64,000 nucleotides of DNA from Streptomyces sp. NBC_01233 (GTDB lineage: Bacteria; Actinomycetota; Actinomycetes; Streptomycetales; Streptomycetaceae): NCBI RefSeq assembly GCF_035989305.1, contig NZ_CP108514.1:3596501-3660500 (forward strand), written 5' to 3'. Each line of letters begins with the position of its first letter. The first letter of the stretch is position 1. Position numbers and translations under genes: made by a program. The notes beneath the pieces are model-generated. The model was not told the DNA's origin. It did not search any database and worked only from the letters and a program-made list of their open reading frames with translations. This document shows, piece by piece, positions 27,886 to 34,771 of the stretch.

Positions 27886-28274
27886 TGGTGGAGATGGCGG
27901 GAATCGAACCCGCGTCCAACGGTGCAGAAGCAGGGCTTCTCCGAGCGCAGTCCGCTGCGATTTTCTCGGCCCCGGAGATCACACGGACAAGTCTCCGACG
28001 GGCTCAGTCACTGTTTGATTTCCCTCCAACCCCCGTGACCGGGGTTAGAGGTTTAGATCCCTAATTGACGCCAGGATCCGGACCGGGACCACTTCCGGGC
28101 TGACGCTCCTCACAGAGGCTTCAGCTCACTGTTATTAGGCAGCGAGGGTGAAGCGGGAGTTATCGCTCTTGGAGTTGGCGATTATTGTTTGCGACATATG
28201 GTTAGCGAGATCATTGCCGCTTCCTCGGCTCGCTTCCCCTGCATCGACATCCGCTGTCGAAACCGATCATCCCC
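27886..28274 (-). ncRNA. ssrA: Transfer-messenger RNA (tmRNA)
   Basis: A 389-nt RNA rescues stalled ribosomes together with SmpB. The 5' end GGGGAUG pairs with CAUCUCC before the encoded ACCA end, including the G-U pair at position 3. The T-arm GGTTCGATTCC is present, as are pseudoknot-forming GC blocks. The tag reading frame is 28179-28138 on the minus strand and reads ANSKSDNSRFTLAA followed by TAA TAA. The resume codon is inferred. smpB lies about 100 bp upstream on the same strand. The 3' end is intact, with no integrase nearby. Confidence 0.95.
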
Positions 28275-32343: not shown

Positions 32344-33453
<1,110 letters not shown>

Positions 33454-33544
33454 GGGTCCAGCGTAGCCGGTCCCCGGACAACGCCGTCCGGGCAGGCCGG
33501 ATCGCCCGTACTGATGACGACTCGTACGGGCGTACGCTCACGGT
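33454..33544. promoter_or_regulatory. Divergent promoter region of prfB and the leader-peptide unit
   Basis: A 91-bp gap. On the plus strand a -10 hexamer TACGCT (33533-33538) sits only 6 bases before the ATG of the leader peptide, which predicts a leaderless transcript beginning at or near 33545. A possible -35-like CTGATG lies at about 33511-33516. No clear prfB promoter could be fixed. Confidence 0.4.
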
Positions 33545-33634
33545 ATGACCGTTCTCCTCGTCAAGCGCCGCCATGTCGACCACATGCGTGTCACGACGAC
33601 GAGCTGTCTGCCGCCGGACCGTACCCAAGCCTGA
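33545..33634 (+). CDS. Leader-peptide ORF of the actinobacterial RRHVD...C type
   Basis: A 29-codon frame, probably leaderless. It opens MTVLLVKRRHVDH and continues MRVTTTSCLPPDRTQA before TGA. The core K-R-R-H-V-D-x-M-R-V-x4-S-C matches the short upstream peptides (R-R-x-H-x-D-x2-R-x-x-S-x-x-C) that precede many actinobacterial sulfur and cysteine genes, some of which act by cysteine-responsive attenuation. It is followed after 135 bp by an oxygenase gene. Bases 33653-33660 (GGTCCTGT) can pair with 33736-33743 (ACAGGACC), just before the downstream start, so translation of the peptide could change access to that start. The family assignment is from memory of the motif. Function is inferred. 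Confidence 0.6.
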   Translation: MTVLLVKRRHVDHMRVTTTSCLPPDRTQA

Positions 33635-33769
33635 TCCACCCCGATCCGACTTGGTCCTGTACGCGGCTCACGCGGTCCCGGCACCATCCCGGCCGGCGGC
33701 CCACCTCCACCCGCGACCCCCACCACCTCTGGGGAACAGGACCCCGTGACATCCCGAAACGGAGCCGTC

Positions 33770-34771
33770 ATGCCGTCCGCGCACACTCTCCCCGTCCTGG
33801 ACCTCTCCCAGGCCGACGACCCGGCCCAGCGGGCCGACTTCCTGAAGCAGCTGCACGCAGCGGCCAGGGACACCGGTTTCCTGCACCTGACCGGGCACGG
33901 CGTCACCGCCGCCGAGAGCGCCCGCATCCTGGAGCTGACCAGGGATTTCTTCGCCCTCCCGGAGGCCGACCGGCTCGCCGTGAGCAACCTGAACTCCCCG
34001 CACTTCCGCGGCTACACCCGGATAGGCCACGAGCTGACCGGCGGGGCCTCCGACTGGCGGGACCAGCTGGACGTGGGCGCGGAGCGCCCGGCGCCGGCGG
34101 TGGGGCCGGACGACCCGGCGTACCTGTGGCTGGAGGGCCCGAACCAGTGGCCCGCCGCGCTCCCGGAGCTCCGTACGGTGGTCCTGGACTGGCAGTCCCG
34201 CCTCGCGGCGGTGGCCCACCGGCTGCTCCAGGAGCTCCTCACCTCGATCGGCGCCCCGGCGGACTTCTTCGACGAGGCCTTCGCGGACCGCCCGCACCTG
34301 CACACGAAGCTGATCCGCTACCCCGGATCCGCCCCCTCCGGCGCGGACCAGGGGGTCGGCGCCCACAAGGACTACGGCTTCCTGACCCTGCTCCTGCAGG
34401 ACTCGGTGGGAGGCCTGCAGGTCGTGCGCGACGGCGGTTACCTCGACGTCCCGCCGCTCCCGGGGGCGTTCGTGGTCAACCTGGGCGAGCTGCTGGAGAT
34501 CGCCACGGAGGGCTACCTGACGGCGACGGACCACCGGGTGGTGAGCCCGCCGGGGGCGGTGGAGCGGTATTCGGTGCCGTTCTTCTACAACCCGCGGCTG
34601 GACGCGGTCGTGGAGACCGTCCCGGGCGCCTACCTGGCGTCGGCCCCCGGGGTCGCCCACGACGCGTCGAACCCGCTGCACGCCGAGTACGGGCGCAACG
34701 AGCTGAAGGGCTGGGTCCGGGCCCACCCGGCCGTGGCGCGGCGCTGGCACCCGGAACTGGTCACGGCCTAG
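33770..34771 (+). CDS. Isopenicillin N synthase-family Fe(II)/2-oxoglutarate oxygenase
   Basis: The 333-residue non-haem iron oxygenase has the jelly-roll core. The Fe(II) triad is His199-x-Asp201 (GAHKDYGF) and His255 (ATDHRVVSP), and the 2-oxoglutarate anchor is Arg266-x-Ser268 (ERYSVPFF). The N-terminal DIOX_N domain begins LPVLDLSQAD. The family includes IPNS, DAOCS, and plant-type GA and flavonoid oxidases. The real substrate is unknown, and no beta-lactam genes are nearby. ATG 33770 has GGAG at 5 nt; GTG 33746 is the alternative. The short leader-peptide ORF upstream suggests control by amino-acid or sulfur status. Confidence 0.88.
   Translation: MPSAHTLPVLDLSQADDPAQRADFLKQLHAAARDTGFLHLTGHGVTAAESARILELTRDFFALPEADRLAVSNLNSPHFRGYTRIGHELTGGASDWRDQLDVGAERPAPAVGPDDPAYLWLEGPNQWPAALPELRTVVLDWQSRLAAVAHRLLQELLTSIGAPADFFDEAFADRPHLHTKLIRYPGSAPSGADQGVGAHKDYGFLTLLLQDSVGGLQVVRDGGYLDVPPLPGAFVVNLGELLEIATEGYLTATDHRVVSPPGAVERYSVPFFYNPRLDAVVETVPGAYLASAPGVAHDASNPLHAEYGRNELKGWVRAHPAVARRWHPELVTA

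Follow-up and report, generated by a model that had tools for sequence, protein, structure and literature searches.

A conserved leader peptide with a single UGU cysteine codon probably ties an isopenicillin N synthase-family oxygenase of Streptomyces to sulfur supply

In Streptomyces, a short ORF of the RRHVD..RVT...C type with a single cysteine codon precedes a Fe(II)/2-oxoglutarate-type oxygenase of the isopenicillin N synthase (IPNS) family. Our analysis suggests, with a probability of about two in three, that this ORF encodes a cis-acting, cysteine-responsive leader that controls a 2-oxoglutarate dioxygenase scavenging organic sulfur, and through this pair the cell probably matches the enzyme to the cysteine available. 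A leaderless mRNA would begin at or near position 33545 of the window (the whole stretch of DNA that was analysed, 64,000 nucleotides long) and its first ORF would be translated as the leader peptide. The single UGU codon (Cys21) would sense charged tRNA-Cys, and the progress of the ribosome on the leader would set oxygenase output at translation, through a folded RNA located before the Shine-Dalgarno sequence. By analogy with the polycysteine leaders of mycobacteria, cysteine shortage would most likely cause more oxygenase to be made. The enzyme, an IPNS-family and probably 2-oxoglutarate-dependent dioxygenase, would then probably free sulfur from an organic compound, as analogy with the genomic neighbours of its homologues suggests. 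The features of the locus are as follows.

33533..33538, + strand: -10 element TACGCT, 6 nt upstream of the leader ATG; leaderless start expected near 33545
33545..33634, + strand: leader peptide ORF, 29 aa, RRHVD..RVT...C type (from sequence, relatives and profile)
33605..33607, + strand: cysteine codon TGT (UGU), Cys21, proposed sensor codon (from TGT in the leaders of relatives versus genes)
33653..33660, + strand: P1 5' arm GGTCCTGT, complement of the P1 3' arm, also in relatives
33663..33666, + strand: P2 5' arm GCGG, pairs with 33711-33714
33711..33714, + strand: P2 3' arm CCGC, pairs with 33663-33666
33718..33722, + strand: P3 5' arm CCCCA, pairs with 33730-33734
33730..33734, + strand: P3 3' arm TGGGG, pairs with 33718-33722
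33736..33743, + strand: P1 3' arm ACAGGACC, complement of the P1 5' arm, also in relatives
33744..33747, + strand: P4 5' arm CCGT, abuts P1, pairs with ACGG at 33759-33762 over the Shine-Dalgarno sequence
33759..33762, + strand: P4 3' arm ACGG, pairs with 33744-33747
33760..33764, + strand: Shine-Dalgarno sequence CGGAG of the oxygenase, by eye; fits ATG 33770
33770..34771, + strand: Fe(II)/2-oxoglutarate-type oxygenase, 333 aa, DIOX_N + 2OG-FeII_Oxy (from domains, residues and fold)

A previous sequence-only reading of this DNA had described the leader ORF, a -10 hexamer six bases before its ATG and a gap of 135 bp to the oxygenase; all three are in place, the distance from the leader stop to ATG 33770 being 135 nt. 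The 29-aa peptide encoded at 33545-33634 is MTVLLVKRRHVDHMRVTTTSCLPPDRTQA. All 54 distinct oxygenase leaders have a TAnnnT hexamer 6-7 nt upstream of the in-frame start, for a chance level of 1.6% with shuffled upstream sequence (5-8 nt allowed), and TAnnnT is the -10 element given for S. lividans in the available part of a published study (PMC8079986). A scan with the consensus sigma-70 promoter returned no promoter-like hexamer pair and no -35 match, the -10 element alone being clear. The missing -35 match, together with one oxygenase leader that uses TGC (see below), makes our best explanation slightly less firm.

Conservation of the peptide before orthologous oxygenases, on which the earlier proposal depended, was borne out by genome comparison. 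Among 392 genomes of the same genus, at least 155 contain an oxygenase match at E<=1e-100, and the 147 listed matches with at least 65% identity were taken as the orthologue set. A match to the leader profile was present upstream and on the same strand in 137 of these 147, among the matches listed, at 80-273 nt from the oxygenase match. Reciprocally, 133 of the best 137 leader matches listed (E<=1.3e-11) precede the oxygenase, although the profile was built from 31 such oxygenase leaders and those rows are not independent. Among the remaining ten orthologues, G556 and G822 have an ordinary leader below the list cut-off, whereas the leaders of G001 (TGT) and G550 (TGC) are diverged; in G012 oxygenase and leader are about 420 kb apart (loci L165/L166), in G580 the oxygenase is at a contig edge, and four (G006, G661, G084, G623) had no leader on re-inspection. 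We also noticed one leader kept without an oxygenase behind it (L162, in G724) and one kept before an oxygenase that looks broken (L164, in G814). The linkage holds though the flanking genes differ between clades: by eye, one clade has release-factor and kinase-like genes and another has, among others, a citrate synthase-like gene. A 48-row tree shows clades A, B and C interspersed with leaderless groups, and this mixture makes gains or losses of the leader likely. A motif scan upstream of the oxygenases of a neighbouring family revealed no leader.

The RNA between the leader stop and the oxygenase start appears to be structured. The two 8-nt segments that had been proposed to pair across the gap (33653-33660 and 33736-33743) are indeed perfect complements, but an 8-bp complement is not significant in the window alone, since 323 of 2000 dinucleotide shuffles contain one (16%). 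Support for this helix, P1, comes instead from relatives, which retain the complement inside a covarying three-helix domain. Given 25 clade-A sequences, RNAalifold recovered P1 unprompted and placed P2 and P3 within it (alignment A3, 25 of the 29 clade-A rows, four whose reference fell on the wrong strand being omitted). Throughout P1-P3, 98.6% of cells are paired; three pairs are changed on both sides, a number reached by 3 of 500 shuffles, and six cells are changed on both sides, which none of 500 shuffles reached. Four double changes at one P3 pair belong to four related sequences and may be a single event. A slide of -2 also gave two pairs and six cells doubly changed, but with 48% of cells paired. 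In the P1 of clade A, U-A becomes C-G once, four cells hold wobble pairs and one is mismatched. For P1 counted by itself, 70 of 500 shuffles reach its counts; the case for a conserved RNA rests on the whole P1-P3 domain. P4, the short helix over the Shine-Dalgarno sequence, is paired in 96% of clade-A cells with covariation no greater than in shuffles. A 4-bp helix that covers the Shine-Dalgarno sequence in clade B is paired in 32 of 32 sequences, with A-U in place of G-C in three (alignment A2, 32 of 38 rows, six short ones or ones of other local types being omitted). Running RNAalifold on 19 clade-B leaders with their gaps gained little.

Folding calculations did not clearly indicate that a stalled ribosome opens the ribosome site of the oxygenase. 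For 34 loci, an earlier folding gave a small mean rise from 0.26 to 0.34, equal for a ribosome at the stop codon. When the 5' end was moved to a ribosome on the cysteine codon, clade A stayed flat at about 0.37 (2 up and 2 down of 29), while 14 went up and 6 down of 40 in clade B and 3 of 6 went up in clade C. A ribosome stalled at the cysteine codon should not cover the first stem arm, as this arm lies 48 nt downstream. Complements of CUGUC follow the leader as GACAG in 9 of 73 cases against 5.1 expected and as GGACA in 13 of 73 against 4.7; after other leaders, GACAG occurs in 4 of 44 against 2.4 expected. By eye, the 5-nt GGACC within the leader (33616-33620) might pair with the P1 5' arm in place of the 3' arm. 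Rfam at gathering cut-offs matched a tmRNA alone in the whole window; its gene lies at 27886-28274 on the minus strand.

The lack of a clear translation switch in these calculations would suit a cysteine-responsive control that acts not at the oxygenase ribosome site but on transcription, through Rho access or coupled attenuation. Such a control is rather unlikely in our view, as no terminator-like site was found in 33450-33850 and the conserved helix over the Shine-Dalgarno sequence, with its covariation in the second clade, speaks for translation. We favour the model in which the leader acts at translation.

The choice of cysteine codon points to decoding as the sensing step. The window leader contains a single cysteine codon, nine codons upstream of its stop. 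This codon is TGT in 54 of 54 distinct motif-matched oxygenase leaders, the motif leaving it free but the leaders sharing descent and hence not being independent trials. TGT is also the cysteine codon in 43 of 47 leaders preceding other genes, one of which (L094) is identical with the L131 leader. By comparison, TGT makes up 32 of 339 cysteine codons (9%) in the genes called at 24 loci, and in the window it accounts for 7 of 104, as counted with a simple purpose-made gene caller. The eight other invariant leader codons have G or C as their third base in 358 of 432 instances, so that the T in this position is particular to the cysteine codon. The diverged G550 leader uses TGC. We observed TGC as well in four leaders of other genes (L095, L102, L113, L103), three of which precede a winged-helix regulator and one an SsuC-like permease. 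Theory ties codon choice to attenuator sensitivity, although the argument, in the passages available, concerns isoacceptors (PMC1183508).

The peptide itself is also constrained, with pN/pS = 0.37 across the 54 distinct cores of oxygenase leaders, taken from 87 loci (a recount of 56 after dropping L131 and L132, which both precede metY). Nine positions (L, V, R, R, H, V, D, R and C) are invariant in these cores, in part by choice because they were gathered with a motif fixing RRHVD, R and C; the C-terminal tail is variable among relatives. Eight invariant residues upstream of the cysteine go beyond what tRNA sensing needs, and one could imagine an arrest peptide, whose RRHVD..RVT segment would stall the ribosome from within the exit tunnel in response to a sulfur metabolite, Cys/UGU then being the stall site and not a gauge of tRNA. 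Since the motif pre-fixes several of these residues, the aligned leaders and profile matches are the freer evidence for such an arrest. We consider it unlikely, as UGU is fixed at the level of the codon, which points to decoding, and we retain Cys21 as the putative sensor of charged tRNA-Cys.

The oxygenase contains both domains of the IPNS-like Fe(II)/2OG family (PF14226 and PF03171) above cut-off, its HxD, H and RxS active-site residues are invariant in a 28-sequence alignment, and its structure model has a mean pLDDT of 91. The nearest solved structures by sequence and fold are PDB 9ovh and 6jyv (35-37% identity in the fold search); solved IPNS structures match at about 5e-15, the best chain at 7e-62. 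An in-frame GTG at 33746 is an unlikely start, since in most clade-A relatives a 1-nt indel between it and the ATG disrupts the reading frame.

The neighbourhoods of homologous oxygenases suggest a function in sulfur acquisition. We examined twelve plasmid loci, about one per genus, hand-picked from the listed rows of 133 records; eleven are annotated, ten proteobacterial ones and one from Dietzia (Actinomycetota). Clear sulfur genes occur within 6-7 kb in 9 of the 10 annotated proteobacterial loci, including MetQNI, transsulfuration enzymes, SsuA/SsuD, SfnB, a sulfate ABC transporter, MsuE and cysE. The Rhizobium plasmid locus has a rhodanese only, and the Dietzia locus a methionine-synthase-like gene. 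Among actinobacterial homologues, several adjoin O-acetylhomoserine sulfhydrylase-type genes (L054/L132, L056/L131, L202, L203, L059). At L028, which belongs to a genus of the neighbouring family, the gene directly upstream of the oxygenase on the same strand encodes a Cys/Met PLP enzyme, and at L022, from the same genus, a related protein is encoded one gene further off; none was seen near the oxygenase of L031, which together with L022 forms the sister group of clade A in the 48-row tree. Homologues in other actinobacteria (L119-L126) are mostly without sulfur neighbours, and the passages found in the sulfur-starvation literature contain no mention of the window oxygenase.

These neighbourhoods, mostly on proteobacterial plasmids, together with the genes behind similar leaders (see below), support the part of the sequence-only reading that invoked cysteine or sulfur control of the oxygenase, and its overall interpretation is partly supported; a thiol or sulfonate substrate is possible. 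Alternatively, the enzyme could be a natural-product or general hydroxylase of which only the supply is tied to the sulfur state. Consistent with this, no sulfur gene lies beside the oxygenase in the stretches read of clades A and B, and paralogues at 52-55% identity (L204-L208) adjoin QueC-like genes (Pfam run on L204 only), as does the paralogue in the annotated S. angustmyceticus record. We nonetheless find such a role improbable in view of the sulfur genes around the proteobacterial homologues and the sulfhydrylase-type genes at several actinobacterial loci, and prefer an enzyme that would scavenge organic sulfur. More broadly, paralogues L201 and L204-L208 were seen beside or near QueC/QueD/QueE-like genes.

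Similar leaders precede sulfur genes elsewhere. By pattern, the genome of origin has at least three such leaders, the window one included; by eye, the other two stand before a sulfite/nitrite reductase-like gene and an arylsulfatase-like remnant. After the latter leader (L070, at G000:C1:4385161-4385229), only about 90 residues resembling an arylsulfatase C-terminus remain, also by eye, and relatives have sulfatase genes behind the same leader type. We fetched 40 of the next 44 listed leaders (four were skipped, one being the second leader of the same genome) and located 38, L115 and L118 being the exceptions. In 31 of these 38, which are ranked by likeness to the oxygenase leader and are not a random sample, the first called gene downstream is of sulfur type: 16 sulfatases, 8 metY, 3 of sulfite/nitrite reductase type, 2 SsuD-like, 1 SsuC-like and 1 SBP56. 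The others are 3 DUF1684, 1 nitroreductase and 3 winged-helix regulators; each name rests on a single representative, most NCBIfam matches being below cut-off. The DUF1684 and nitroreductase-family genes behind the leader (L092, L097, L116, L082, L131) may be unrecognised sulfur genes; at L131, the leader, metY, metX and then DUF1684- and nitroreductase-like genes follow each other on one strand. That the small ORF encodes a trans-acting protein, as its amino-acid conservation might suggest, is very hard to reconcile with a fixed UGU, a steady position before the gene, a variable C-terminal tail and similar peptides in front of other sulfur genes.

We found no earlier description of the leader-oxygenase pair in the literature searched, which came largely from journals open without subscription. 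The leader family (NCBI) and cysteine attenuation in mycobacteria (published) are already known; what is new is that the target is an oxygenase, that a single UGU is fixed and that the RNA covaries. A broader view, which is on balance doubtful, is that a codon-fixed UGU serves as a cysteine gauge in a large set of actinobacterial leaders, working here through a three-helix RNA before an IPNS-family dioxygenase that would cleave carbon-sulfur bonds, a TauD-like scavenging by a different enzyme family across Actinobacteria and Proteobacteria. Our observations connect a family that is annotated by fold alone, as 'isopenicillin N synthase family oxygenase', with the acquisition of sulfur in two phyla, and they make the substrate class of the enzyme directly testable. 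As the leaders seem to use the rare cysteine codon UGU, a synonymous change of a single base can serve to test the sensor codon.

Among known systems, the closest are leader families NF042934, NF042936 and NF042933, which like the oxygenase leaders are short RRHxD..R....C ORFs. NCBIfam NF042934 (cis_reg_atten, 'putative leader peptide') matches each of the 31 aligned leaders (E<=0.01, best 2.6e-11), as does NF042936 (Ms4527A, E<=0.01), and NF042933 (Ms5788A) matches 5 of them; the window peptide falls below the three cut-offs (17.4 of 27 bits with E 0.0025, 24.1 of 45 bits and 15.6 of 45 bits, respectively). NF042934 is presumably defined by an RRHxD..R....C pattern heading a sulfur gene; the window leader has this pattern, and its oxygenase is linked to sulfur by the neighbourhoods of homologues. 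The known kinds in NF042936 and NF042933 are Cys-rich, whereas here there is one cysteine codon and the target is an oxygenase.

In polycysteine attenuators of the Ms5788A kind, stalling of the ribosome frees the ribosome site of the following gene. Canestrari et al. reportedly described in 2020 polycysteine leaderless ORFs of M. smegmatis that lie before cysteine/sulfur loci and respond to cysteine. The window leader would resemble these as a predicted leaderless ORF, with fitting -10 spacing, before a gene of putative sulfur function. It differs in that the run of contiguous cysteine codons typical of Ms5788A is absent, its single UGU being far from the ribosome site of the next gene. The accessible parts of two studies indicate that leaderless ORFs with contiguous cysteine codons attenuate in M. 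smegmatis (PMC9031893, PMC13236596).

On the enzyme side, PDB 9ovh is titled ancestral ethylene-forming enzyme Anc357 and 6jyv P. aeruginosa 'isopenicillin N synthase'; their likeness to the window oxygenase is in sequence and fold, while their titles name ethylene formation or IPNS. TauD taurine dioxygenase is a 2-oxoglutarate/Fe(II) dioxygenase of sulfur scavenging. It is likened to the window oxygenase by predicted role, the latter being a DIOX_N/2OG-FeII_Oxy protein. In the passages available from one study, a MegL-type group that has metboxes is in every case clustered with an IPNS-like oxygenase, and the Shewanella IPNS-like 'PcbC' beside MegL likewise associates such an oxygenase with a transsulfuration-family enzyme and with sulfur control, exerted there through MetJ boxes and here, as we propose, through a leader peptide (PMC3228920).
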